From: Nitrospira sp. BO4
Lineage (GTDB): Bacteria > Nitrospirota > Nitrospiria > Nitrospirales > Nitrospiraceae
DNA length: 64,000 bases
Direction of reading: 5' to 3'
NCBI GenBank assembly: GCA_030144965.1
Contig: JAMPUU010000007.1
Span: forward strand, 62,001-126,000
The notes under the pieces were generated by a model that was given only the letters and a program-made list of their open reading frames with translations, had not been told where the DNA came from and did not search any database. The stretch's first letter is position 1, and every line of letters begins with the position of its first letter. This document shows positions 10,217 through 64,000 of this stretch, piece after piece. Position numbers and translations under genes: made by a program.

Positions 10217-12919
10217 CTATCTGTCAGCGTTCTTTTTTGCTGCCTTCCACATTTCCATGGCGACGAGTGGCAGCATCCCAATGCCAATTGCCAGAACCCA
10301 ATGTTCAGGATCGAAGGGGGCGACCTTGAAGATGCTTTGAACCGACGGCCAGGACACAATGACGGCCTGCAGCAGCGCGGATAGCCCCACCGTGGCCAGC
10401 AACGGCTTGTTCGTCCAGAGGCCAAGCGCAAAGATCGATCGGTCCTCGCTCCGGTTATTCAGGGCATGGAAAAGCTGCGCCAGAACCATCACCGTAAAGG
10501 TCAGCGTGCGGGCCCGCTCCAGATTGAGGTCCATGCCGTAGAGGCAATACAAGAACGCCAGGAGCGTGATCACAGCGATGAAAGTTCCCTGAATAAACAG
10601 TCTCAGCAAGCGTGCCCGCGTGAGGAACTGCTCCTGTGGCGGACGAGGGGGCCGTTGCATCAAATCCGTGTCCGACGGGTCAACGGCTAAGGCCAGGGCG
10701 GGCAAGCCGTCTGTGACCAAGTTGATCCACAGAAGTTGCACCGGAAGCAGAGGGAGCGGGAGCCCGAACAGCGCCGCCAGCAACATCAGCAGAATCTCGC
10801 TGATGTTGCAGGAGAGCAGGTAGTAGACACTCTTCCGAATGTTGTCGTAAATCGCCCGGCCTTCCTCCACGGCCGCCGCAATCGACGCGAAGTTATCATC
10901 GGTTACGACCATGTCGGCGGCTTCTTTCGTCACGTCAGTGCCGGTGATCCCCATGGCAATCCCAATGTCTGCCGCTTTGAGAGCGGGGGCGTCGTTCACC
11001 CCATCGCCCGTCATCGCGACCACTGCTCCCTGTTGCTTCCACGCGCGGACGACTCGTAGTTTGTGTTCTGCTGTTACGCGCGCATAGACCGCCGCTGCCT
11101 TCACTCGATCACGCAACGCATCATCCGAGAGCTGGTTCAGCTCCGCACCTGAGATCGCTTGCTCGCCCGGCTCCATTATCCCTAGCTCTTTCGCAATAGC
11201 GACCGCCGTGTCCTTATGATCTCCGGTGATCATGACGGTTCGAATCCCAGCGGCGCGACACACCTCCACTGCCGCCTTCGCTTCCGGCCTGATCGGATCT
11301 TTCATCCCAACCAATCCCAAGAACACGAGATCGTGTTCCAGACTCTTGGCGTCATAGACGTCCGGAATCCGGTCCAGCGGCCGCATGGCCACCCCGAGGA
11401 CTCTGAGCGCTTGTGACGCAAAGCGTTGATTGTCAGCCGTGATCTCCTGGCGGATCGCATCCGTGAGCGGCTGGATTTCGCCGCCTCGCGTGAGCCAGGC
11501 TTGGCAGTCGCGCAGCAAGACATCCGGAGCGCCTTTGACAAAGGCGACTGGACCTGAGGGAGTTCGGCGCACCACTGTCATTTTCTTTCGCTCTGAGTCA
11601 AAAGGCACTTCGCCCAACCAGGGATTTTCCTGTTCAAGGTGATTCTTTGTCAGTCCGGCCTTGGCCGCGGCGACCAGCAATGCGCCCTCCGTCGGATCAC
11701 CCACGATTTGCCAGAGAAAGGCCTCCAGCCGAAGGTCGGCACCATTGCACAGCACACAGGCGCGCAAGAGCGTCATGAGTCCTGGTTGCAAAGACGGTGT
11801 CGTGGGCTCACTGTCCGACCGGATCTCCCCGACTGGCGCGTACCCTTCACCGGTTACGGTGAGGATTTCGCCTCCTTGGTACAGGGCCGTCACCGTCATT
11901 TCGTTCTTTGTGAGCGTCCCCGTCTTGTCGGAGCAGATGACTGTCGTTGAGCCCAACGTTTCGACCGCGGGCAACCGCCGGATCAAGGCGTGACGTTTCA
12001 CCATCCGCGTCACGCCTAAGGCAAGGGTGATGGTGACCACGGCGGGCAGGCCCTCAGGGATCGCCGCCACGGCCAAGCTCACCGCTGTGAGAAACATCGT
12101 CACTGCCGGGATGCCGCGCAAGATACCGAGTAAGAACACGATCATAACGATGCCGAGGGACAACCACAGCAGGGTGTGTCCCAGTTGGTCCAGCCGACGC
12201 TGAAGCGGCGTTTCCTCTTGCTCTGCCTGGGCTTCTCGGTGAATCAACGCGGCAATCTTCCCGAGCTCCGTCTGGGCTCCGGTGGCCGTCACCAGCGCGC
12301 GCCCTTTTCCGGAGACGACAATGGTCCCCATGAAGAGCATGTTATGGCGGTCACCCAAGGGCACCTCTGTTTGGGGAATCGGCTCGGCTGATTTGGCGAC
12401 CGGGGTCGATTCGCCAGTCAGCGAGGCTTCCTGTGTCTGGAGCCCCGTCGCATAGACTACGCGACTGTCTGCTGGAACACGGTCGCCCGCTTCGATCTGA
12501 ATGAGATCGCCCGGCACCACTTGACCGGCGGGGATTGCTTGTACTGTGTCATCACGGATGACCCGTGCGGTCGCCACCGAGAGTTGTTTCAGCGCCGCGA
12601 GCGACCGTTCAGCCCGGAATTCTTGTACGAAACCGAGGATCGCATTGAGTACGACGATCGCGAGAATGGCTGCCGCATCGATCCATTCCTGCAACAGACC
12701 GGACACGAGGGCGGCACCAATTAGCACCCAGACAATGAGGCTCGTGAATTGACTTAGAAAAATCTTGAGCGGTGAGGGCGGAGCTGCTTCTGGCAGTTCG
12801 TTCGGTCCAACTGTCGCCAAACGATGCTGTGCCTCGGAGGCGGTAAGCCCTGTAGCTATGTCTGATTGGAGCTCTTGCTCGAGTCGTTCAATGCTCAGCG
12901 CATGCCACGCAGCCGTCAT
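10217..12919 (-). CDS. P2-type cation-transporting ATPase (Ca2+-ATPase-like)
   Basis: 900 residues, full length for SERCA/PMR1-like bacterial P-type ATPases. It has an N-terminal cation-ATPase domain, actuator motif TGES (168-171), transmembrane ion-site motif IPEGLP (287-292), phosphorylation motif DKTGT (Asp331), nucleotide site KGAPD and hinge TGDGVNDAPALK. The IPEGLP helix and the C-terminal helix bundle (NLVTDGLPALALAVDP) indicate a P2 pump for Ca2+ or Mn2+ rather than a heavy-metal P1B pump. An AAGGAG ribosome site precedes the ATG. It follows two small lipoprotein genes and leads into GH57. Confidence 0.92.
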   Translation of the reverse strand: MTAAWHALSIERLEQELQSDIATGLTASEAQHRLATVGPNELPEAAPPSPLKIFLSQFTSLIVWVLIGAALVSGLLQEWIDAAAILAIVVLNAILGFVQEFRAERSLAALKQLSVATARVIRDDTVQAIPAGQVVPGDLIQIEAGDRVPADSRVVYATGLQTQEASLTGESTPVAKSAEPIPQTEVPLGDRHNMLFMGTIVVSGKGRALVTATGAQTELGKIAALIHREAQAEQEETPLQRRLDQLGHTLLWLSLGIVMIVFLLGILRGIPAVTMFLTAVSLAVAAIPEGLPAVVTITLALGVTRMVKRHALIRRLPAVETLGSTTVICSDKTGTLTKNEMTVTALYQGGEILTVTGEGYAPVGEIRSDSEPTTPSLQPGLMTLLRACVLCNGADLRLEAFLWQIVGDPTEGALLVAAAKAGLTKNHLEQENPWLGEVPFDSERKKMTVVRRTPSGPVAFVKGAPDVLLRDCQAWLTRGGEIQPLTDAIRQEITADNQRFASQALRVLGVAMRPLDRIPDVYDAKSLEHDLVFLGLVGMKDPIRPEAKAAVEVCRAAGIRTVMITGDHKDTAVAIAKELGIMEPGEQAISGAELNQLSDDALRDRVKAAAVYARVTAEHKLRVVRAWKQQGAVVAMTGDGVNDAPALKAADIGIAMGITGTDVTKEAADMVVTDDNFASIAAAVEEGRAIYDNIRKSVYYLLSCNISEILLMLLAALFGLPLPLLPVQLLWINLVTDGLPALALAVDPSDTDLMQRPPRPPQEQFLTRARLLRLFIQGTFIAVITLLAFLYCLYGMDLNLERARTLTFTVMVLAQLFHALNNRSEDRSIFALGLWTNKPLLATVGLSALLQAVIVSWPSVQSIFKVAPFDPEHWVLAIGIGMLPLVAMEMWKAAKKNADR

Positions 12920-49169: not shown

Positions 49170-50084
49170 TTACACGGCAAGTCCGGCAAGCTGTTCTATG
49201 TGCTTTGCCACCTCATCAAGTGTCCATTGAGGGACAAGGATGCCTCCCACGACTGCGGCTTTATTGCTCCCATCGAACCACTCCCATTGGAGATCCTCTT
49301 TGGAACGAATTCGATATGTGTGTGACTTCTGCTCAGCACACACCTCAAAGACGCTGAGGGACGACCCACTGCCGTCATCCACCACGATCACAACGTCCGC
49401 TTTCTGGGCTAACTTCACGGCCATGTTCTGTCGCAGATAGGAGTCGCTACAGACGGTCTCGATGATTTTTATTGGAATGTTCTTTTCCTCGAGTTTCCGC
49501 TTCACACGGTCGTACTCAAGCGTATTCCCGGTCACTTGACCCACAAACGCCCACTTGCGCTCCTTCTCGTTCGGCAGGGTCTCAATGTCTTCCGGTCTCT
49601 CCGCCACTACACATTGGCGCCCATGTGTCTCCGCAAGTCTGTTGGCCTCCAGACAATGATGATTGCCTCGCTTGCCGAAAATAATGATGTCAAATTCATC
49701 CGTCACCAGTGTTTTTATCGTTTCGTTCAGCCTCGAGATGAACGGACACTGCCGATCGTCCACGACCGCACCGTCTCGCTCCAACCGTTCCCGCACCCCT
49801 GGTCCAACACCATGAAAGCCCACGACCACCACATCGCCGGTTTGGAGACGCGAGAGATCGTGAGGGTCTAGGACCGATATTTTTGTGAGATTGGGATAGC
49901 GGCTGATGAGGGACGCGTCTTTGGTTTCAATTCTCCTCAACGTATCCCATTCGGCATTTTTGTGGGGCGTGGTGCATTGATGAACGGCAAAGGTCGATTC
50001 CCGGTCGGCGGCGATCTTGTTCATGGCCTGATAGGCCTGCTCGATCCCCACGCAAAAACCGAGTGTCGCTGTTGTGATTTCCAC
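49170..50084 (-). CDS. IspH (LytB)-like Fe-S protein, substrate residues altered
   Basis: 304 residues from a GTG with AAGGAGGG upstream. The layout follows IspH: GFCVGIEQA (Cys11), HQCTTPHKN, FHGVGPGVRE, QCPFISRL (Cys113) and VCSDSYLRQN (Cys212), so the three ligands of a [4Fe-4S] cluster are kept. By eye, the IspH HPE motif with the catalytic Glu reads NHHCLE, the SxN of the diphosphate site reads SLS, and the late Ser (GASAP) reads GILVP. It therefore may not make isoprenoid precursors. It is the last gene of the operon with the B12-controlled receptor and a permease. A corrinoid- or cobalt-related redox role is inference. Confidence 0.8.
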   Translation of the reverse strand: MEITTATLGFCVGIEQAYQAMNKIAADRESTFAVHQCTTPHKNAEWDTLRRIETKDASLISRYPNLTKISVLDPHDLSRLQTGDVVVVGFHGVGPGVRERLERDGAVVDDRQCPFISRLNETIKTLVTDEFDIIIFGKRGNHHCLEANRLAETHGRQCVVAERPEDIETLPNEKERKWAFVGQVTGNTLEYDRVKRKLEEKNIPIKIIETVCSDSYLRQNMAVKLAQKADVVIVVDDGSGSSLSVFEVCAEQKSHTYRIRSKEDLQWEWFDGSNKAAVVGGILVPQWTLDEVAKHIEQLAGLAV

Positions 50085-52942: not shown

Positions 52943-53106
52943 TCCCAGTACCCAGGTCTCCTGACTCTCGGCTCGTCCTACTCTCTGCGCCTTCCCATCC
53001 TTGCGGACAGTGGCTGAGGCAGATTTCGTCCCCGATCACAGTTGCGGACCAGTGGCGGCTTCTACCGCGCTTCCCTTGGGGTACATGGGCTATCGATGCA
53101 TTGGAT
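52943..53106 (-). promoter_or_regulatory. cobalamin riboswitch 2
   Basis: Same elements as riboswitch 1: core CCGCAACTGT (about 53,038-53,047), GGGAAGGCGC and B12 box GAGAGTCAGGAGACC (52,955-52,969). About 140 bases are identical to riboswitch 1; only two differences appear in the next 17 bases of the 5' part. It lies between the NiCoT stop and the receptor start and should control the receptor-permease-IspH-like operon. Confidence 0.92.
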
Positions 53107-53141: not shown

Positions 53142-53942
53142 TTACGCCACCCGGCACTTGGCTTTGATCAGAGCTGTCATAAACGCCAACAGCACCGCCC
53201 CGAGCACCATGATCGTGAGACCCATGTCGCTGATCGGCAACGCAAACGAGGTGGGCTGGAGCAATTTGATGATCCCAACGACGTAGGCCAATCCCACGAC
53301 GGTCAGCGTCATCATGCGATTACCCTGGATGGCCATCGTGGTCGCAGCCAGATACATCCGGCGCACGACGAGTCCGTTGATCGAGTCGGTGATCACCATC
53401 CCCAAGCTGAATGCCACCCCGATCAGCAACGCGCCCAACAGGCCGTAGCCCATCGTTCCGGCCAAGGCCCAGGCCGACATCTGACTAGCTGTCTCGAACC
53501 CCAGCCCGAATAAGGCGCCGACCGGCACAGCGCTCATCGGATGCGTGATATTGAGCATCTGCCTGGGCAAGAGATGGCCGATGACGCCGCTGCTCGGAGC
53601 TGCGGCGCCAGCCGGCAGCGTGACCAGCCGCGCGAGATTCAACGTCCCGATGGCGAACAAGAGGAGGGCCGACAACACCCCGCTGACCTGCAGCACAGAG
53701 TTGCTGAACGATTGCAGATACTCTGCCGCCAGCGCGATCAGTCCTGCAATCAACAGAACGGAGAGCGCGTGGCCGAATGCGAACCAGGTTCCCACCCAGC
53801 GACTCATTCTCGGATGCCGATCCACCGAGGCCCTCGTCATGCCGTCGATGGCGGTGAGATGGTCCGGGTCGGCTCCATGGCTTAGCCCCAATGCGCAGGC
53901 GAGACCGAGTAAGGGCCAGAGACTGCCGTCAGCTGGATTCAT
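53142..53942 (-). CDS. NiCoT-family cobalt/nickel transporter
   Basis: 266 residues, about seven or eight helices. The signature in TM2 is LSHGADPDHLTAIDGMTR (His22, Asp25, Asp27, His28), with FGHALSV, LGFETASQ and VITDSINGLVV in later helices, as in HoxN/NixA/NhlF permeases. In this setting Co2+ for corrin synthesis is the likely substrate. The ATG at 53942 is preferred (AGGG upstream); a GTG two codons earlier is possible. It follows cobQ by 50 bases. Confidence 0.9.
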   Translation of the reverse strand: MNPADGSLWPLLGLACALGLSHGADPDHLTAIDGMTRASVDRHPRMSRWVGTWFAFGHALSVLLIAGLIALAAEYLQSFSNSVLQVSGVLSALLLFAIGTLNLARLVTLPAGAAAPSSGVIGHLLPRQMLNITHPMSAVPVGALFGLGFETASQMSAWALAGTMGYGLLGALLIGVAFSLGMVITDSINGLVVRRMYLAATTMAIQGNRMMTLTVVGLAYVVGIIKLLQPTSFALPISDMGLTIMVLGAVLLAFMTALIKAKCRVA

Positions 53943-53992
53943 AGACACCCTTGTGGATTGTGGCTCTCACACCGAAAATCATGACGCATCCT

Positions 53993-55543
53993 TCACCTGG
54001 GAGAAACCGAGCAGAGGCCGGTGAGACGCCAGAGCAGCTCGCAGTCGATGTGCTCACGAACCACGGCTTCCAGCCGGTCATACTCAGCCTGCTTCGAAGG
54101 GATGCGTTGAATCGAGGCTGGCTCCGAAAGCCCCTTGCGCCGGCGCAGGAAGGAAAGAGTCCTCGCCCTGATCACCTCATTCTCGAACAGGCCGTGCAAC
54201 ATGGTGCCCACCACCATACCGTTGCTACTGATGGCCCCGTCGCTGCGCACCTCCATCCGCCCGTTCCGCGACCGAATCTCGAAGGGGCTCGCCTGCCTGT
54301 TCCTAGGGTCCACCATCCCCATGTGGATTTCGTACCCCCTGACCTCCCCTTCGACAGCCGCGCCATCGGTGAGGAACGAGGGACGCAACACGCGGGCCAG
54401 AACCTGTGCCGTAATTTTCTCCCGCTCGAAGCGGGTCCGCAGGGCAAGCAGTCCCAACCCGCGCACCTGAACTTCTGTTGATTCCACTCCGTGGGGATCG
54501 TCGATGACCTCACCGAGCATTTGGCACCCACCGCAAAGGCCTAACACCGGTTGGCCCTCGTTGGCGCGCGCCTCGATCGCGCCGGCAATGCCGCTTGCGC
54601 GGAGCCAGGCAAGATCGGCCACCGTGTTCTTCGAGCCAGGCAGGATCACCAGATCGGCGCCCTCTACCTCGTCCGGCTGCTCAACGAATCGTACGACGAC
54701 ACCGGCTTCATGCTCCAGCGCCTCAACATCGTCGTAGTTCGAGATGCGCGGCAATCGCACCACCACGATGTCGAGCTCCTGTCGGGAGGGTCTGCGGCGT
54801 GATAGCCGTTCTTCAAGCGACACGGAATCCTCGTCTGCAATGCGGAGGTCCTTGATGTAGGGCACGACACCCAGCACCGGCTTGCCGGTGCGTTCGGTCA
54901 GGAAACTAAGCCCCGGCGTGAGCAGCGCAAGATCGCCGCGAAATTTATTCACGACGAACGCCGCGACCCTGGCCCGCTCGTCCGGCTCAAGCAGTTCCAT
55001 CGTCCCGACAAAAGAGGCGAAGACGCCGCCCCGGTCGATGTCTCCCACGAGGAGCACCGGCGCATCCGCCAGCTTGGCCACATGCATGTTGACGATGTCG
55101 CGGTCCTTCAAATTGATCTCGGCCGGACTCCCTGCCCCCTCGATCACGACGAAGTCATAGTCCGTTCTGAGTCGCGTGAGCGATTCCGCAATCACCGGCA
55201 TGAGGCGCGGCTTATATTCGTGATACTCGGTCGCCGTCATGCTGCCGATCGGCTTGCCGAGCACCACGACTTGGCTTCGTCGATCGCCTTCCGGCTTGAG
55301 CAGGATCGGGTTCATGTCCACACAGGAGAGAATGCCGGACGCTTCTGCCTGCACCGCTTGCGCCCGTCCGATCTCGAGGCCGTCGGCGGTGACGGCCGAG
55401 TTGAGCGACATGTTCTGCGACTTGAAGGGAGCGACACGCAGTCCTTCGCGGCGGAAGAACCGGCAGAGGGCCGTAACCAGAAGACTCTTCCCGGCAGACG
55501 AGGCCGTGCCTTGGACCATGATGGTGGGAGCGCGAACGCTCAC
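53993..55543 (-). CDS. cobQ: cobyric acid synthase
   Basis: 516 residues. N-terminal ATP-binding domain with GTASSAGKS (about 12-20) and FKSQNMSLNSAV; C-terminal GATase domain with GLCGGCQMLGE (catalytic Cys about 337) and GTMLHGLFEN. It amidates four side chains of adenosylcobyrinate a,c-diamide using glutamine and ATP in the cytoplasm. The GTG at 55543 is chosen because it overlaps the cobB stop (GTGA) and has GGAGGGG upstream; the frame is open a further 23 codons. Confidence 0.95.
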   Translation of the reverse strand: MSVRAPTIMVQGTASSAGKSLLVTALCRFFRREGLRVAPFKSQNMSLNSAVTADGLEIGRAQAVQAEASGILSCVDMNPILLKPEGDRRSQVVVLGKPIGSMTATEYHEYKPRLMPVIAESLTRLRTDYDFVVIEGAGSPAEINLKDRDIVNMHVAKLADAPVLLVGDIDRGGVFASFVGTMELLEPDERARVAAFVVNKFRGDLALLTPGLSFLTERTGKPVLGVVPYIKDLRIADEDSVSLEERLSRRRPSRQELDIVVVRLPRISNYDDVEALEHEAGVVVRFVEQPDEVEGADLVILPGSKNTVADLAWLRASGIAGAIEARANEGQPVLGLCGGCQMLGEVIDDPHGVESTEVQVRGLGLLALRTRFEREKITAQVLARVLRPSFLTDGAAVEGEVRGYEIHMGMVDPRNRQASPFEIRSRNGRMEVRSDGAISSNGMVVGTMLHGLFENEVIRARTLSFLRRRKGLSEPASIQRIPSKQAEYDRLEAVVREHIDCELLWRLTGLCSVSPR

Positions 55544-56916
55544 TGGCCCCTCCTCGCATGTCCCGCGCAGGCCTGCACAAAACCCTGAGCCAGGAGAGGA
55601 TTCGAGGCCCAATGAGCATGCACATAAGACGCCAGCGTATTGCCCTTACGATAACCCTCCTGGAACAGCTCGCCTCCACGGCGGCGGCGCACGCTGTAGA
55701 CGCTCTCAACCTCAGCTTGAAGGCGAAAGTCCGAATAGCGAAATTGATGTCCGCGAAATCGCAGACCGGACGGACCGAACATCGTGGCATCCTGCGTTTC
55801 CACCTCGACGTATCCGAGCGCCTGCAAGCGATCGCGCATCTCCGCTTCACCGGGGATGAGCCCCACCATGGCATGCAGAACGCCATCGACCGTCCGGATA
55901 CCGCTGGATAAATACATGAGGCCGCCACATTCGCCGTAGATAGGCCCTTGGGCCTCGGCAAACGCCGCCACATCGTGGCGCATGGAGATGTTCCGGGACA
56001 GCACTTCGGCATGGACCTCTGGATAGCCGCCACCGAAGTAGAGACCGTCCACGTCAGGCAGGTGCGTATCGCGAATGGGAGAGAACCGCACGAGTTCCGC
56101 GCCGAGGCTCTCAAGACGCCGAAGGTTGTCGTCATAATAGAAGTGGAATGCCTCGTCGAAGGCGAGACCGATTCGGCAGCGTGCCCCCTCCCCGACGATC
56201 CGTGCCATCGCAGGAATGTCCGGAAGAGCCGGCGCGGCGCGCGCCAGCGCCACGATCGCCTCGACATCGCACCACTCGCTCACCCGATCGCCCCAGGACA
56301 CGAACACAGCCTCCGGAACCGTTGCCCGGTCTGCGCTATGCAGACCCAGATGCCGGTCCGCGAAAGCCAGCGCTGCTTCTTTAGGCAACCCGCCCAAAAC
56401 GGGAGGAACGCCCCCCGTCGCCTTGCGGAGTAAATCGAGATGCCCACGGCTGCCGAGCCTGTTACAGATGAGACCGGAAATCTGGAGGTCTGGATCGAAG
56501 GTCGAGAACCCTTTGGCCAGCGCCGCGATGCTACGAGCCATGCCTCCTGCGTCGCAGACGAGCAGCACCGGCGCCTGCAGCCACTTGGCAATCTCGGCGG
56601 TCGAGCCTTCGTCACTCGTCGGTGAGGCGCCGTCGAACAAACCCATCACTCCTTCGAGCAACGCGATATCCGCCCCTTGCGACGCGCGCGTGAACGTCGA
56701 GAGGACCGCCTCACGCCCCATCATCCATCCGTCGAGATTCTGGCAAGGCGCATCGGCCGCGCGAACGTGATAGGTCGGGTCGAGATAATCGGGACCGCAC
56801 TTGAAGACGGCCACGCTCAGCCCCCGCGCACGTAATGCCCGGACGAGACCGACCATGACGGTCGTCTTGCCGACGTTGCTAGCGGTGCCGGCAATGACGA
56901 GCCGTGGAATCGTCAC
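55540..56916 (-). CDS. cobB: cobyrinate a,c-diamide synthase
   Basis: 458 residues. P-loop IAGTASNVGKTT (about 8-19), FKCGPDYLDPTYH, and a C-terminal glutaminase domain with GPIYGECGGLMYLSSG (Cys330) and FRGHQFRYSDF. CobB/CbiA amidates the a and c acetate groups of cobyrinate. It follows bluB by 49 bases and overlaps cobQ. Confidence 0.95.
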   Translation of the reverse strand: MTIPRLVIAGTASNVGKTTVMVGLVRALRARGLSVAVFKCGPDYLDPTYHVRAADAPCQNLDGWMMGREAVLSTFTRASQGADIALLEGVMGLFDGASPTSDEGSTAEIAKWLQAPVLLVCDAGGMARSIAALAKGFSTFDPDLQISGLICNRLGSRGHLDLLRKATGGVPPVLGGLPKEAALAFADRHLGLHSADRATVPEAVFVSWGDRVSEWCDVEAIVALARAAPALPDIPAMARIVGEGARCRIGLAFDEAFHFYYDDNLRRLESLGAELVRFSPIRDTHLPDVDGLYFGGGYPEVHAEVLSRNISMRHDVAAFAEAQGPIYGECGGLMYLSSGIRTVDGVLHAMVGLIPGEAEMRDRLQALGYVEVETQDATMFGPSGLRFRGHQFRYSDFRLQAEVESVYSVRRRRGGELFQEGYRKGNTLASYVHAHWASNPLLAQGFVQACAGHARRGQ

Positions 56917-56965
56917 GAGTCGATCTCCGGCTGAGCCTTAACCGCACATGCGAACGGGTAGGTCA

Positions 56966-57712
56966 CTAGGCTCTGCCTTCCGCGGAATGTATCGGTGCGG
57001 GTGTCGCTTGCGCTCCGTCGATCCGGCTCGTTTCCAGCGCGCGGAGGAGGTCTGGCCTGGGACGCTCGTCCCACTTGTCATGAAACACCAACTCATGCAG
57101 CGGCAGCCTTGGCAGCCAGCCGTTGCTCTCAAAAATAGGCCGTTCAGGAAAACTCTCCACGAACCCGACACAAAGATAAGCAACAGGAATGATCCGTTCA
57201 GGAATTCCGAGAATCGTGCGGAGGACGGCCGGCTCCATGATGCTGACCCAGCCGACTCCGACCCCTTCTGCCCGCGCGGCCAACCAGAGATTTTGAATCG
57301 CGCAGCAGGTGCTATAGACGGCGGTTTCCGGAATCGTGTTCCGTCCGATCACCGTCGGCCCGAACCGCTCCTGATCGCAGGTGACACAGAGGTTGAGGGG
57401 CGAATCGAGAATCCCCTCCAGCTTGAAGGAGAGATACTTCTCGCGGCGCTCCTGGTCGAACGTTTCCGCTGCGCGCAGCCGTTCTACCTCGACATGGGCT
57501 CGCACCTTGGCGCGGGTCTCGCGATTCTCTACCACGAGAAAATTCCAGGGCTGCGAGAGCCCGACCGAGCCAGCCTGATGCGCGGCCATGAGGATACGAG
57601 CCAGGGTTTCGTCTGGAATGGGATCAGGGAGAAACGCGCGCATGTCGCGTCGGCGCGTAATCGTTTCGTACAGGCCCCGGCGCCAGGCTTCCGGAAAGGC
57701 ATGATCCGTCAT
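56966..57712 (-). CDS. bluB: 5,6-dimethylbenzimidazole synthase
   Basis: 248 residues. Nitroreductase-like fold with RRRDMRAFLPDPIPDETLAR, GSVGLSQPWNFLVV, and GVGVGWVSIMEPAVLR, all typical of BluB. BluB splits reduced FMN with O2 to form the lower ligand of cobalamin, so the cell probably meets oxygen. Its ATG overlaps the cobA/hemD stop (ATGA). Confidence 0.95.
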   Translation of the reverse strand: MTDHAFPEAWRRGLYETITRRRDMRAFLPDPIPDETLARILMAAHQAGSVGLSQPWNFLVVENRETRAKVRAHVEVERLRAAETFDQERREKYLSFKLEGILDSPLNLCVTCDQERFGPTVIGRNTIPETAVYSTCCAIQNLWLAARAEGVGVGWVSIMEPAVLRTILGIPERIIPVAYLCVGFVESFPERPIFESNGWLPRLPLHELVFHDKWDERPRPDLLRALETSRIDGAQATPAPIHSAEGRA

Positions 57713-59181
57713 AGTTTCCCCACCATCGACACCACCAGAGAGACCAGCGATGCCACGCTGTCTGCCTCAGACAAGACTACAGACTGAGCCCCGCATTGAC
57801 GCGCCGCTGCTTCGGTCTGAGGCCCGATTGCCGCCATCGGCAGGCCCAACAGAGCCTTGCCGAAGTCTCCAGACAGTATGGTGCGAGCTGCAGAGGAACT
57901 GGGCAGGATCACGAGATCGATCGGCGGCAAGGGAGCCGTCGGCATCCGGTGAACATAACGATAGGCAGCCACCGCTTCGATCTCTGCACCGATCTTCGTC
58001 AGTTCGTGTCGTAAGTTCGGACGGCCCTCCTCCGCTGTCACGAGGAGAAATGGCCCCTTCTGAAAAAACACCGACTGCTCACCCACCGCCTCCTGACAAG
58101 CCCCACGCAGAGCAACGGCGGATGCGATGCCATGCCGTGACAGGGCCTGCGCCGCCGCGGCTCCGACTGCAATGACCGGCAGGTCGAGGGTGGGAACATG
58201 GGACAAGACCGCATCGACACCGGCCGCGCAGCCGAAGACGATGCCGCGGAATTCATGGAGGCGAGCCAGAGCCTTATCGATGGGGGACCCTCCGCTCAAC
58301 GAGACCGCTTCGACCTCGGGAATTTCCAGCACCTCTGCTCCGAGCGAACGGAGTTCCGCTGCCATCGCAGAGAGGCCTGGGCGAGCGCGCGCGACGAGCA
58401 AACGCCGGCCAGCCAACGGGCGGCGCTCGAACCAGGCAATCCGTTCACGCAATCCAACAACGTCGCCGACGATGACGAGGGCAGGAATGGCAAGGTCGAC
58501 ATATTGTATTTTTCCTGGAAGTGTCGCCAATGTCCCGACAATGACATGCTGTTCAGGAGTGGTGGCGGAGGCGATATAGGCAGCGGGAGTCTCAGATGAG
58601 CGGCCTGCCTGAATCAATCGCTGAAGATTCGCCGAAAGTTTTCTGGCAGCCATGAACAACACCAGGGTACCCTTGCCGCTGGCAGCCTTGGACCAGTCGG
58701 TGAGACTCTGGCTCCCCTCGACATCGTGGCCGCTTAGGAAGGTCACGTCGGAGGAATGCATTCGATGGGTCAATGGAATCCCCGCATAGGCTGCTGCGCC
58801 AAGAGCGGATGAAATACCAGGAACGATCGTGCAGGGAATGCCAGCTTCCGCCAGTTCCTCCGCCTCCTCCCCGCCCCGCCCAAAGATCAGCGGATCTCCC
58901 GCCTTCAACCTCACGACGGTCCTGCCAGCTTTGACGCGAGCCAGCACCTCCGGGTGCAATCGATAGCCTATCGCTCCCTCACCATGACGCCGGCCTACTG
59001 ATAGTAGCTCGGCCTCAGGCCTGACGAGCGAAAGAATGGCCTTGGAAACCAACTCGTCATAGGCCACGACATCCGCGGCCCGCAGCAATTCCAGCGCACG
59101 AACCGTGAGCAGGCCCGGATCGCCCGGTCCTGCCCCGACCAGATAGACCATGCCTGTTCGAGTCTCTGGCTCAGTCGGCAC
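57709..59181 (-). CDS. cobA/hemD: fused uroporphyrinogen-III methyltransferase/uroporphyrinogen-III synthase
   Basis: 490 residues. Residues about 10-245 are a SUMT (CobA): VGAGPGDPGLLTVRALELL, VRLKAGDPLIFGRGGEE, PGISSALGAAAYAGIPLTHR. Residues about 255-490 are HemD-like: GRRLLVARARPGLSAMAAEL then VILPSSSAARTILSG and MAAIGPQTEAAARQ. It closes the tetrapyrrole ring and makes precorrin-2, the branch point to corrins and siroheme. It overlaps cobM by 11 bases and bluB by 4. Confidence 0.93.
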   Translation of the reverse strand: MPTEPETRTGMVYLVGAGPGDPGLLTVRALELLRAADVVAYDELVSKAILSLVRPEAELLSVGRRHGEGAIGYRLHPEVLARVKAGRTVVRLKAGDPLIFGRGGEEAEELAEAGIPCTIVPGISSALGAAAYAGIPLTHRMHSSDVTFLSGHDVEGSQSLTDWSKAASGKGTLVLFMAARKLSANLQRLIQAGRSSETPAAYIASATTPEQHVIVGTLATLPGKIQYVDLAIPALVIVGDVVGLRERIAWFERRPLAGRRLLVARARPGLSAMAAELRSLGAEVLEIPEVEAVSLSGGSPIDKALARLHEFRGIVFGCAAGVDAVLSHVPTLDLPVIAVGAAAAQALSRHGIASAVALRGACQEAVGEQSVFFQKGPFLLVTAEEGRPNLRHELTKIGAEIEAVAAYRYVHRMPTAPLPPIDLVILPSSSAARTILSGDFGKALLGLPMAAIGPQTEAAARQCGAQSVVLSEADSVASLVSLVVSMVGKL

Positions 59182-59965
59182 GAATCTCTCCTTGCTGCTT
59201 CACCGTCGGCTCGCCCTTCCTGAACCGATGGGTAAACTCCGGATCGTACAACTTCGAATTGGCAAACTCGGTCGCCGTAAGCACACGCCCCACCAACACC
59301 ATCGAGGTCGAGTTGAGCTTGGCCGCCTTGGCCTTGTCGGCGATGTCCGCTAGGGTCCCGGTCACAATCACTTGATCGGGCCAGGACGCTTTATGCACGA
59401 TGGCCACGGGACAATCAGCGCCGTACGAGGGAGTCAGGGACCGCACGACATCCTTGAGGAGCGTGATGCTGAGAAACAGCGCCAACGTCGCTTGATGCTT
59501 CGCCAGGTCTTCCAGCTTTTCACCCTCAGGCATCGAGGTCCGCCCCTCCGCCCTGGTCAGGATCACCGTCTGAGACAATTCTGGAAGGGTGAGTTCACGG
59601 CCCAATGCCGCCGCGGCCGCCGTGAAGGAGGAGACGCCGGGAATAATCTCATACGCAATGCCCAGCTCCGTCAGCCGGCGCATCTGCTCGGCCGTGGACC
59701 CGAAGATCATCGGATCTCCCGTATGGACCCGCGCCACATCCTGGTCCGCCTCGCGGGCGGCCACGATCACTTCGACGATCTGTTCGAGCGTCATCCCCGA
59801 TGAATCCATCACCTTGGCGTCGGGCCTGGCATGGGCAATGACCTCTTTAGGGACCAGCGATCCTGTGTAGAGCACGACGGGGCAAGACGCGATCAACTCC
59901 GCCCCGCGAAGCGTGAGGAGTTTCGGATCGCCCGGACCTGCTCCAATGATATACACACGCATCAT
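59171..59965 (-). CDS. cobM: precorrin-4 C11-methyltransferase
   Basis: 264 residues. VYIIGAGPGDPKLLTLRGAE, LYTGSLVP, VHTGDPMIFGSTAEQMRRL and PGVSSFTAAAAALGRELTLP are those of CobM/CbiF. It methylates C11 of the corrin precursor with S-adenosylmethionine. It overlaps cobA/hemD by 11 bases. Confidence 0.95.
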   Translation of the reverse strand: MMRVYIIGAGPGDPKLLTLRGAELIASCPVVLYTGSLVPKEVIAHARPDAKVMDSSGMTLEQIVEVIVAAREADQDVARVHTGDPMIFGSTAEQMRRLTELGIAYEIIPGVSSFTAAAAALGRELTLPELSQTVILTRAEGRTSMPEGEKLEDLAKHQATLALFLSITLLKDVVRSLTPSYGADCPVAIVHKASWPDQVIVTGTLADIADKAKAAKLNSTSMVLVGRVLTATEFANSKLYDPEFTHRFRKGEPTVKQQGEIRAD

Positions 59966-59972
59966 GACTCCT

Positions 59973-60386
59973 TTACGTACACTTCAACACGGTCTCTCGC
60001 ACAATCTGCCAAATCTCTGATGGGATCTCTCCCAGCCACTGCGCGTCGATATTGCCGACCGGCGCTGCGCGGTTTTCCTGTTTGGGATCGGTCACCAAAC
60101 GCCAAAGGCGATCGCTCACCGATCCATTCCGCTGAATCACGAACCGATCCACCAGCAACCGGGCCAAGACTTCTCCCTCGACGTTCATGGTCACGTAGGG
60201 TTGTGGAACCTGAACCGGGCGAAGAGTCGAGAGCCTGATAAATGGCCGTTCCATCGCATCGATCACGCCGGGATGTTCGAACCCCACCGCAATAAAGTCA
60301 CAGGGCTCCTTGGGATTGCCCACCAGAAAGAACTGTCCTTCCGTCTCGGCCAGAATGGCTCCGGCTAAACGTCCGACCAACGCCAT
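59973..60386 (-). CDS. unknown protein embedded in the corrin operon
   Basis: 137 residues, not recognised. Soluble, mixed alpha/beta: FFLVGNPKEPCDFIAVGFEH, PGVIDAMERPFIRLSTLRPV, YVTMNVEGEVLARLLVDRFV, ending IVRETVLKCT with a penultimate Cys. The ATG shares one base with the cobJ stop (TGATG), and the stop lies 7 bases before cobM, so it is surely translated with them. It does not resemble any standard corrin enzyme I know. It could be an assembly or substrate-handling factor. Confidence 0.75.
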   Translation of the reverse strand: MALVGRLAGAILAETEGQFFLVGNPKEPCDFIAVGFEHPGVIDAMERPFIRLSTLRPVQVPQPYVTMNVEGEVLARLLVDRFVIQRNGSVSDRLWRLVTDPKQENRAAPVGNIDAQWLGEIPSEIWQIVRETVLKCT

Positions 60387-61222
60387 CAGTCCGTCTCCGC
60401 TGCCGGTGGAACCACGAGCGAGAACCCCGGTCTCTGACCAGGGAGGACGGCTCCGTCGAAACGGTACTTGTTGGTATAGCCACGCGGAGTGACCATGTAA
60501 CCCTCGAACATGAAGGTGTTGCTCGACCCGATGATGACGGTAGTCAGCATCCCAATCTCATAATCCAAAAAGTTATCCAGATCGGTCAGAATTACCTGTT
60601 CCATATCGCGATAGGCGCTCTTCACCAGGGCCACTGGCGTGTTCCCCTCGCGATGACGCCGGATAATCGCCTGGGCATCCACGATCTGCCTCGTGCGCCT
60701 GCCGCTGGCAGGATTGTATAAACCGATCACGAAGTCCGCGCTGGCCGCCGCTTCGATCCGCTTCTCGATCACAGACCAGGGGGTCAGCAGATCCGAGAGC
60801 GAGATCGAGCAAGAATCATGAACCAAGGGCGCTCCGACCAGCGACGCGCAGGAATTGAGCGCGGTCATCCCAGGGATGAGACGAAGCTCAGGCGAATCGC
60901 CCCTCTTCCAGCCCATTTCTTTCAACACCTGAAAAACCAAGCCTGCCATGCCATAGACTCCTGCATCGCCGGAGGAGATCAAGGAAACCGTCGCGCCATC
61001 TCTCGCTCGTTCAATGGCGGCACGGGCACGGCCGATCTCTTCCGTCATCCCGGTCTTGATGATCTCTTTGCCTTCGAGCAGGTGGCGGACCAGCTTGATA
61101 TAGGTGCTGTAGCCGACCACGAGCTGGGACTCGGCAATCGCCTTCAAGGCAGCCGGAGTCGCATGGTCCTGCGCACCAGGCCCAATGCCCACGACATAGA
61201 GAATTCCTGTTGCATCGCTCAT
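60386..61222 (-). CDS. cobJ: precorrin-3B C17-methyltransferase
   Basis: 278 residues. LYVVGIGPGAQDHATPAALK, VSLISSGDAGVYGMAGLVFQ, PGMTALNSCASLVGAPLVHD, and IGLYNPASGRRTRQ are typical of CobJ/CbiH. It methylates C17 and drives ring contraction. Two Cys (about 125 and 138) stand near the active region. It overlaps cbiG by ATGA. Confidence 0.95.
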   Translation of the reverse strand: MSDATGILYVVGIGPGAQDHATPAALKAIAESQLVVGYSTYIKLVRHLLEGKEIIKTGMTEEIGRARAAIERARDGATVSLISSGDAGVYGMAGLVFQVLKEMGWKRGDSPELRLIPGMTALNSCASLVGAPLVHDSCSISLSDLLTPWSVIEKRIEAAASADFVIGLYNPASGRRTRQIVDAQAIIRRHREGNTPVALVKSAYRDMEQVILTDLDNFLDYEIGMLTTVIIGSSNTFMFEGYMVTPRGYTNKYRFDGAVLPGQRPGFSLVVPPAAETD

Positions 61223-62358
61223 AGGCTGCCCACCTCCATCTGCCGTTTCACGAAGGCCCGCCGCGCCACGGCTAAGGTCATCGATCGTCCCGCTCCCGGT
61301 TCCGTATAAATCTGTTTGGGCACGAGGAGCTCATCCGCCCCTGCTGCAAGCAATGCAGCCGGCTCCGACACCCCGCGCGAACCAACATGCTGTTTCACCT
61401 TCTCCGAGGGATTCTGGATGCCTGGCACCACGTCCAATTGTTCCGGCGGATAGGTGCGTAGCGGCCAGCCATATTTCTCGCTCAAGGCCAGCAATGCAAG
61501 CTCATCCTTCTTCACGTCGATGGTCGCCAGCTCTTTGACAGATTTTGGTGAGAGGCCCTGCTTAGCTAAAATGGCCAGGACTCCCCGCTCCACCAGATCG
61601 GGAGCCGTACCTCTGTCGCAGCCGATCCCGAGCACGAGACTCTTCGGGCGATAGATGACAGCATTCTTCCAATGGGCCGGATGAGATAAGTCGATCTCGC
61701 GATCCGTGGCGATCAAGAGAATTTCAAACGCCTCCGGGTCCACTCCCTCCAGCGAGGTGGCGTAACCGACCCCTTCCGGCAAGGGCTTCTCGACAGGCCA
61801 CCAGTCCGGCTCTCCTGTCTCCTGGACAAAGAGCACGTCGGTCGCATTCACCACTGCGGCGCAGCCCCTCGTCACATTGCGGTCCGCATCGTCGAGCGTC
61901 CACCCCAAGTCGCGGCCCAAAATATCCACCGTCAAGGTGCCGATCGCATCGGACGCAGTGGTCACGACCGACTGCGCGCCCAAGGCGGTCGCGACCCGTT
62001 CCGTAAATATATTGCCTCGGCCGACGTGACCCGACAGGACACAGATCGAGAAGCGGGCTGCATCGTCGATGCAGACCACCGCCGGATCGACCTTCTTGTT
62101 CTTCAAGAGCGGCGCGATCATCCGCACTACCGCCCCGACACTGATAATGAAAATGTGGCAATCGTAGGCAGGAAAGGTCTCGATCAGCGTAGGCCCCATC
62201 GGCAACGGCAGGCGAAGCGCACCGGCTGGCGCCGAGGCGATCAGCTTCTCCGACACGAAGAGGTCCGCGCCGGATAGCTGCGGCAGCAAGCGGGAGGCAA
62301 TCGCGATCCCATGCTTCGTGATGGCATAGACCGCAAATGGTTTGCGTTCGACGATCAT
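61219..62358 (-). CDS. cbiG: cobalt-precorrin-5A hydrolase
   Basis: 379 residues. Contains the CbiG N-terminal region (FAVYAITKHGIAIASRLLPQ), the central FIISVGAVVRMIAPLLKNKK with DPAVVCIDD, VLSGHVGRGN and TASDAIGTLTVD, and the C-terminal CbiG_C domain (LVLGIGCDRGT, SEPAALLAAGADELLVPKQI). It opens the lactone in the early-cobalt (anaerobic) pathway. The start at 62358 overlaps the cobI stop (ATGA). Confidence 0.95.
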   Translation of the reverse strand: MIVERKPFAVYAITKHGIAIASRLLPQLSGADLFVSEKLIASAPAGALRLPLPMGPTLIETFPAYDCHIFIISVGAVVRMIAPLLKNKKVDPAVVCIDDAARFSICVLSGHVGRGNIFTERVATALGAQSVVTTASDAIGTLTVDILGRDLGWTLDDADRNVTRGCAAVVNATDVLFVQETGEPDWWPVEKPLPEGVGYATSLEGVDPEAFEILLIATDREIDLSHPAHWKNAVIYRPKSLVLGIGCDRGTAPDLVERGVLAILAKQGLSPKSVKELATIDVKKDELALLALSEKYGWPLRTYPPEQLDVVPGIQNPSEKVKQHVGSRGVSEPAALLAAGADELLVPKQIYTEPGAGRSMTLAVARRAFVKRQMEVGSL

Positions 62359-63137
62359 GCCCCTGTCTCTCTTGTGGCCAATCTCGGGGTCGCAGGCACC
62401 AGACCTGCCAACAACCCGCTCCGTTCCTTGCGCGACACGATGATCATTGCGAAACAATCGCCCCGCTCGGTCTGGATCGTGCGAATGTCCCGGACGATTC
62501 TCTGTTCTGCCATGGTGGCCTTCGATACATAGACCGCCCGATCGACGAGTCCCTGCCGCTCCAGCGCTTCGACCACCTTGGGAATCTCTGTACCCATCTT
62601 CATCAAAACGACGGTGTCGAACATCTCCAGCACCTGGCTCAAATCCTCAACCCCGTAGCTCGCGGGGAGAATGGCGATCCGCTCCTGCCCATCTGCCAAG
62701 GGAATGCCGGTCACGGAAGGCACAGCCATGATCGACGAGACGCCTGGGACGACTTCGATACGGATACCGGGCCAGCGCAACGGAGCTTCCCGGCGCAGAT
62801 AGATGAAGGTGCTAAAGAGCGAGGGATCGCCTTCCGTCGCAAAGGCAACCGACAGGCCTTTCTCCAGCCGCTCCCCGATGGCCGTGAAGGCCGCGTCCCA
62901 GGCAGGCTTCAACCGCTCCGGGTCCTTGTTCATCGGGAACGTCAAAAAAATCCGTTCCTGCCCCGGAATCTCGCCCAAGGTCGGCTTGAGGATCTTCCAG
63001 GCCATCGACTCTCCGTAATCGGAGCTGCGAGGCAGAGCGAGGACCTGCGCCTCTTTCAACACATTGAGCGCGCGGAGCGTAATCAGATCCGGTGCGCCTG
63101 GACCGACCCCGACTCCATATAATGTTCCATAGTTCAT
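62355..63137 (-). CDS. cobI: precorrin-2 C20-methyltransferase
   Basis: 260 residues. YGVGVGPGAPDLITLRALNV, VAFATEGDPSLFSTFIYLR and PGVSSIMAVPSVTGIPLADG match CobI/CbiL. It adds the C20 methyl group. It overlaps cobL and cbiG by ATGA on both sides. Confidence 0.95.
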   Translation of the reverse strand: MNYGTLYGVGVGPGAPDLITLRALNVLKEAQVLALPRSSDYGESMAWKILKPTLGEIPGQERIFLTFPMNKDPERLKPAWDAAFTAIGERLEKGLSVAFATEGDPSLFSTFIYLRREAPLRWPGIRIEVVPGVSSIMAVPSVTGIPLADGQERIAILPASYGVEDLSQVLEMFDTVVLMKMGTEIPKVVEALERQGLVDRAVYVSKATMAEQRIVRDIRTIQTERGDCFAMIIVSRKERSGLLAGLVPATPRLATRETGA

Positions 63138-64000
63138 GAGACCGCTCCTGTCTGGCTGGGCTTCTCGACTGAGAAAATTTGAATCGGGTTCAAGGATTCG
63201 TACCGAAGATAATGGGCCAGGGGTTCGGCGCGCGACACTTGGAGCAAGGTCACCTCCGGCACCAACCCGCGCTTGCGAAGAGATTGATAGGTCTCCGCCA
63301 CATTCTCCAGCGTGATGGCGTTCACCACCAGGCGGCCGCCCGGTTGCAGCCGGTCCATGACGACATCGATAATCTCTTCCATGCTCCCCTTGCTGCCTCC
63401 GATGAAGACCGCGTCCGGCGCTTCCAATCCTGTCAGCGCCTCCGGCGCCCGGCCTGCGATGACTCGCACATTGTCCACCCCATGGGCCAAGAGATTTTCT
63501 CGGCAGATCTCGACGCCTTCCGGATCGACCTCGATCGCATAGACCAGGCCTTTCGGCGCGAGTAAGGCTGCCTCGATCGATACGGACCCGGAACCGGCTC
63601 CGATATCCCAGACCACGCTGTCCGGCCTGATCCCCATCGCAGCCAGCGACAACAATCGCACTTCACGCTTCGTGATGAGGCCCTTTTTCGGCATCCGCTT
63701 CGCGAACTGATCCTCATGAAGAAAAGGAATGGCACAGGGAGCGCGCCAGGAGGGATCGGAGCGAACGAGCAACAAGACGTTGAGCGGCCCGATATCCTGG
63801 CAGGCGGCCAGAGCCGCTACGTCGAATCGCCGGACCCTCTCATCCGGGCCGCCAAGATTCTCACAGACCCAGGCCTCCCAGGCCGTCTCTCCATGTTCGA
63901 CCATACGCTGAGCCAAGAACTGCGGCGAATTCTTTTCATCGGTGAGGATCGCCACCTTGGCCTGGCCCTTGAGCCTGGTGAGGAATCCCTCAGACGAGCG
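63134..64000 (-). CDS. cobL: precorrin-6Y methyltransferase (CobL or CbiET), 5' end missing
   Basis: The frame stays open to the window edge, so the start lies beyond 64,000. About 288 codons are visible. The first about 90 are the end of the CbiE-like domain (VAALAACQDIGPLNVLLLVR). From KRMPKKGLITKREVRLLSLA onward is the CbiT-like decarboxylating methyltransferase: VWDIGAGSGSVSIEAALLAP, IEVDPEGVEICREN, AVFIGGSKGSMEEIIDVVM. It methylates C5 and C15 and decarboxylates C12. First gene seen in the corrin operon. Confidence 0.92.
   Translation of the reverse strand, partial: RSSEGFLTRLKGQAKVAILTDEKNSPQFLAQRMVEHGETAWEAWVCENLGGPDERVRRFDVAALAACQDIGPLNVLLLVRSDPSWRAPCAIPFLHEDQFAKRMPKKGLITKREVRLLSLAAMGIRPDSVVWDIGAGSGSVSIEAALLAPKGLVYAIEVDPEGVEICRENLLAHGVDNVRVIAGRAPEALTGLEAPDAVFIGGSKGSMEEIIDVVMDRLQPGGRLVVNAITLENVAETYQSLRKRGLVPEVTLLQVSRAEPLAHYLRYESLNPIQIFSVEKPSQTGAVS

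Follow-up and report, generated by a model that had tools for sequence, protein, structure and literature searches.

A LytB/IspH-fold protein from a cobalamin-riboswitch unit that also encodes a TonB-dependent receptor and a half-size permease: a candidate for corrinoid or cobalt assimilation

Results

A minus-strand transcription unit of Nitrospira sp. BO4, headed by a cobalamin riboswitch, encodes a TonB-dependent receptor, a half-size permease and, as its last gene, a divergent relative of IspH that we call the LytB-like protein. We propose, with a probability of only about one in three, that it is a horizontally acquired, neofunctionalised IspH-fold protein that would carry out a reductive step on imported corrinoid or cobalt and so feed a B12 pathway. 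The fuller reading, in which an IspH-fold [4Fe-4S] enzyme for corrinoid or cobalt assimilation has its own receptor and half-size permease and was spread by a mobile element together with B12 synthesis and a B12-dependent ribonucleotide reductase, is put forward more tentatively. It is the genomic context alone that points to corrinoid or cobalt as the object of the reaction. The window, by which we mean the whole 64,000-nt stretch of DNA that was analysed, corresponds to positions 62001–126000 of a 277-kb contig (C7) in a 4.7-Mb genome. The features on which the argument turns are collected in Table 1.

Table 1. Coordinates of the receptor-permease-LytB unit and associated features (window positions unless marked C7).
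Feature	Position	Strand	Remarks
Second TonB-dependent receptor, 683 aa	46885-48936	-	behind second riboswitch, in the neighbouring unit
Second cobalamin riboswitch, RF00174	48968-49133	-	79.8 bits; heads the next transcription unit
LytB-like gene	49170-50084	-	intact frame, 304 aa, GTG start
Half-size permease, 165 aa	50163-50660	-	remote ArsP_1 relative (27.7 bits; Pfam cut-off 32.3)
TonB-dependent receptor, 744 aa	50670-52904	-	profile matches below cut-offs
Cobalamin riboswitch aptamer, RF00174	52954-53076	-	76.7 bits; heads the receptor-permease-LytB unit
NicO-family nickel/cobalt transporter	53142-53948	-	just upstream of the riboswitch at 52954-53076
End of de novo B12 operon	53993-63955	-	profiles and sequence reading
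Adenosylcobalamin-dependent class II ribonucleotide reductase, intein-containing, 1502 aa	C7 203518-208026 (L089:1519-6027)	+	TIGR02504, 534 bits (cut-off 400)

Family and predicted fold of the LytB-like protein

The start codon of the LytB-like gene has a good ribosome-binding site, with AAAGGAGGG standing 5' of it. The encoded protein matches the LYTB family of Pfam (PF02401) with 139.5 bits (gathering score 24.5) over residues 5–297, covering positions 4–267 of a 267-position profile, and this family is the sole match in scans of Pfam and NCBIfam. A profile built from 18 canonical IspHs gives 132 bits over residues 5–299, and a sequence search of the PDB returns Aquifex IspH as the best match (E 1.5e-27), followed by the E. 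coli and Plasmodium enzymes. These profile and PDB matches lie far outside chance and identify a genuine LytB relative. Eight ispH models of NCBIfam are matched too, none at its curated cut-off (128.4 bits for TIGR00216, with an equivalog cut-off of 187.85, and 136.4 bits for NF002187, with a cut-off of 276), so the protein is not an ordinary member. Its identity to canonical IspH sequences is 17–27%. It is a new form within the known IspH/LytB fold family. Its placement in a tree was dropped because the end branch, at 7.4 against a median of 0.32, is too long to place.

An AF2 model, built from an input of three sequences (mean pLDDT 78.9, pTM 0.68, poor at residues 36–55), aligns with E. coli IspH (3f7t) in VIA-align with Z 23.5 and an rmsd of 3.2 Å over 281 residues, and with Aquifex IspH (3dnf) in Foldseek with E 3.7e-21. 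The best non-IspH structural match reaches Z 7.7 over 96 residues. The model predicts that the protein has the three-domain IspH fold; together with the whole-domain PF02401 match, it bears out the general IspH layout described in an earlier note on this DNA. Structural matches to CbiX, Dph2, nitrogenase-like proteins and quinolinate synthase (VIA-align Z 5 to 7) were set aside as lying within the chance range for partial matches.

No orthologue of the LytB-like protein was found in 79 genomes of the genus, in a sample of 395 genomes from the phylum to which a Prevotella genome belongs, or in a genome contig collection, where the single match was a Prevotella IspH. Samples of its own phylum (246 and 396 genomes), as well as plasmids, phages and viral contigs, likewise yielded no orthologue, returning canonical or distant IspH only. 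One family within the phylum gave matches of E 1e-26 to 1e-29; these were rejected as orthologues, since those that we read keep the HPE, SxN and Ser motifs. With no orthologue in the collections searched, the proposed role of the protein rests on one genome, the only one in which the receptor-permease-LytB neighbourhood was seen. A literature search for LytB or IspH in connection with a cobalamin riboswitch or a TonB receptor returned nothing relevant.

Cluster ligands and substrate pocket

Residues were compared in an alignment with the 18 canonical IspHs, using the numbering of E. coli IspH as the reference. In that enzyme, H41, H74, H124, T168, N227, S225, S269 and Q166 form the diphosphate pocket, T167 lies at the hydroxyl, and E126 is the probable proton source (PMC8837944). 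All these positions are invariant in the canonical sequences (18/18). The LytB-like protein keeps the three cluster cysteines that the earlier note had picked out, with C11, C113 and C212 aligned to C12, C96 and C197 of E. coli. These conserved residues and the predicted fold make it very probable that a [4Fe-4S] cluster is still bound through the three cysteines, leaving one iron open to a ligand. Five pocket residues are also retained, namely H41 (H41), H91 (H74), Q183 (Q166), T185 (T168) and S239 (S225), and three positions are substituted (T167 to V184, N227 to S241 and S269 to L283). In addition, ~20 extra residues are found around positions 43–72, between the first-domain helix and the next strand.

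The earlier note had described the HPE motif, the SxN motif and a late serine of IspH as replaced. The serine is indeed gone, as leucine 283 occupies its otherwise invariant position, and V184 in place of T167 is a further pocket loss absent from the note's list. For SxN, the loss of Asn227 stands but Ser225 is kept: the aligned site is S239-G240-S241, and the SLS that had been named as the replacement comprises residues 242–244. The HPE site reads NHHCLE (residues 141–146), so the motif is disrupted as claimed, but the glutamate need not be lost. Specifically, the profile alignment pairs H142 with H124 and E146 with E126 by way of a 3-residue insertion, at low posterior probability, whereas two MAFFT runs place N141 in the His column and disagree on the Glu column; read together, the alignments point to a broken motif with a histidine and a glutamate still nearby. 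At neither motif did alignment with the canonical IspHs reveal an intact HPE/SxN site.

HMBPP reduction by the LytB-like protein is unlikely, as the loss of part of the diphosphate pocket probably leaves it inactive on this substrate. The genome carries a second, canonical ispH on another contig (C12, 328.6 bits), the type also found in other genomes of the genus. This copy and the altered pocket agree with the earlier view that the LytB-like protein is not the housekeeping IspH.

The riboswitch-headed unit

On the minus strand, the B12 operon is followed by the NicO gene, the riboswitch, the receptor, the permease, the LytB-like gene, the second riboswitch and the second receptor. The earlier note had placed the LytB-like gene last in an operon with a cobalamin-regulated TonB receptor and a small permease, and this arrangement holds: the three genes share one strand, an RF00174 aptamer heads them, and the next element is another riboswitch, which begins 36 nt past the LytB-like stop. 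The permease ATG lies 9 nt past the stop of the receptor, and the gap between the permease and the LytB-like gene is 78 nt, wide by operon standards; the intervals between the receptor, permease and LytB-like genes showed no strong promoter or terminator. The sequence suggests that the cobalamin riboswitch likely shuts down the unit when corrinoid is plentiful. The two riboswitches are 95% identical over 181 nt and flank the unit, an arrangement suggestive of insertion at a riboswitch or of duplication together with one.

The closest NCBIfam model for the 744-aa receptor is TonB-hemin, with 258.9 bits (cut-off 316.85); the TonB-B12 equivalog gives 132.9 bits (cut-off 599.7). Homologous receptors occur on Cupriavidus, Methylosinus and Methylocystis plasmids, with no riboswitch beside them in the stretches scanned. 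The permease carries an invariant PGGP motif, which it has in common with half-size ArsP_1-like permeases of other genomes of the genus and of Agrobacterium plasmids (30–33% identity). Those relatives sit within what appear to be PQQ clusters or are neighbours of a monooxygenase, with no riboswitch in the stretches scanned, so the permease family is not corrinoid-specific. Within the genus, half-size PGGP permeases were seen inside apparent PQQ biosynthesis clusters in three stretches (L080, L081, L083), and the neighbourhoods examined in other genus genomes, which are PQQ-type clusters, contain neither a LytB-like gene nor a riboswitch.

Adjoining B12 synthesis genes

The part of the B12 operon inside the window encodes CobQ, CobB, BluB, SUMT-HemD, CobM, a 137-aa frame, a CobJ-type methylase, CbiG, CobI and a CbiT-type methyltransferase, and the operon is headed by its own cobalamin riboswitch (118.7 bits). 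The assignments of BluB, CbiG and the methylase and methyltransferase domains are profile-supported, and the other names come from reading the sequence. The 137-aa frame (59973–60386), located between the CobJ-type and CobM-type genes, has no match in Pfam or NCBIfam. The operon continues (L069:1-5184) with CbiX, DUF3209, an FAD-binding oxidoreductase, CbiD, CbiC and more cbi/cob genes; its CbiX is fused to a 2Fe-2S ferredoxin and occurs together with DUF3209. CbiJ/CobK (PF02571) has no match in the whole genome, and 3 of 14 control genomes match this family. The FAD-binding oxidoreductase of the operon (L069:2517-3242) is a candidate substitute for it. A second B12 locus, on contig C17, shares 98.7% identity with the nearest genome. 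The de novo operon of the window is distinct from that locus, their CobQ proteins being only 48% identical.

The carrying contig

Contig C7 encodes a TraD-type coupling protein, integrases, a primase zinc finger, a sliding clamp, a MucB-type polymerase and DNA methylases, and from this gene content it looks like a conjugative plasmid or an integrated element. The ends of the contig do not overlap. It may also be a foreign contaminant contig; the listed contamination of the genome is 2.43%. Neither the receptor nor the LytB-like gene has a counterpart in the nearest genome, which the DNA around the LytB-like gene matches only in short pieces, at 65–78%. The gene for the class II ribonucleotide reductase adjoins that of the TraD-type coupling protein. 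This B12-dependent enzyme gives the element a B12 need of its own, alongside the B12 synthesis that the element also seems to encode.

Discussion

In the reading that we favour, the outer-membrane receptor and the inner-membrane half-size permease would import a corrinoid or a cobalt complex. The LytB-like protein would, like IspH, receive electrons from ferredoxin or flavodoxin, and its open iron site would act reductively on the ligand brought in. The candidate reaction is a reduction of Co(III) with loss of an upper ligand or, alternatively, the reductive breakage of a C-O or comparable bond, and the product would feed the element's own B12 pathway. The riboswitches, the adjoining de novo B12 operon, NicO, BluB and the B12-dependent ribonucleotide reductase on C7 all support a corrinoid role. 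Against it, the receptor scores nearer to haem-type than to B12-type models, both below cut-off, and the retention of H41, H74, Q166, T168 and S225, with E146 as a possible stand-in for E126, speaks against neofunctionalisation.

The same receptor scores and residual pocket would also suit an enzyme that acts on a small non-corrin organic molecule, for example a metal-binding compound brought in through the receptor, by Fe-S-dependent reductive dehydroxylation or a similar reaction, with the riboswitch serving metal or cofactor economy. IspH itself works by reductive dehydroxylation on an open iron (PMC8837944), the polar pocket is half preserved, possibly with a histidine and a glutamate, and the receptor resembles haem/siderophore-type more than B12-type receptors. 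We nevertheless regard a non-corrin substrate as somewhat doubtful, given that the unit is linked to cobalamin by two neighbouring riboswitches and by the cbi/cob operon next to it. The extreme end branch, the occurrence in one genome only and the loss of invariant residues would fit a non-catalytic or decaying paralogue, whether an Fe-S sensor, a scaffold, a cluster carrier or a gene being lost after transfer. A full-length open frame with a good ribosome-binding site, the retention of all three cysteines and of several pocket residues, and a fold predicted to be intact are harder to square with decay, and this explanation appears doubtful.

That the protein is a divergent but working HMBPP reductase, adding isoprenoid capacity, we consider improbable. 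T167, N227 and S269, each invariant in the canonical set, are lost, the scores fall far below the NCBIfam ispH equivalog cut-offs, and the genome has its canonical ispH, with no isoprenoid genes seen near the LytB-like gene; these points outweigh the kept H41, H74, Q166, T168, S225 and cysteines, a possible replacement of E126 by E146, and the precedent of two LytB proteins coexisting in Mycobacterium tuberculosis (PMC4550268). The absence of CbiJ from a genome with a de novo cbi/cob operon suggests the further idea that the LytB-like protein supplies the missing precorrin-6A reductase step of the element's pathway. This is highly improbable: the gene lies in a separate transcription unit with the receptor, the FAD-binding oxidoreductase within the operon is the more natural candidate, and the only Pfam family matched is PF02401, not PF02571. 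Moreover, CbiJ/CobK performs an NAD(P)H-dependent reduction, which is unlike IspH chemistry.

Among known systems, corrinoid reduction of the kind proposed for the LytB-like protein is carried out by Fe-S-, flavin- or thiol-based proteins, namely the corrinoid reductases and reductive activators PduS, CobR, RACo and RamA, together with BtuM, and the likeness to them lies in this proposed kind of function. IspH (PF02401, TIGR00216; 3f7t, 3ke8, 3dnf) has in common with the LytB-like protein the whole fold, the three cysteines and five pocket residues (H41, H74, Q166, T168 and S225), and differs from it at T167, N227 and S269, in the HPE site that is here expanded to NHHCLE, in the ~20 extra residues and in the B12-regulated context. 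LytB1 of Mycobacterium tuberculosis is likewise a second LytB homologue, present beside an essential one that it is unable to replace; it keeps all described critical residues (PMC4550268), and the LytB-like protein does not.

Annotation almost always makes LytB/IspH proteins isoprenoid enzymes. If the favoured reading is correct, the organometallic IspH fold would have been recruited to another pathway and hidden by automatic annotation, and the LytB-like protein would be an added candidate component of corrinoid uptake or processing. A corrinoid or cobalt role would be new for the LytB family, as none is described in the literature searched, and the single-gene scale of the case makes it easy to test.

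Other features of the contig

Reading of the translated frames also revealed several CusA/CzcA-type efflux systems and P-type ATPases at 10217–45429 of the window. Elsewhere on C7, at ~180.3–180.5 kb (L071:14274-14516), lies a HEARO RNA (RF02033, 108 bits).
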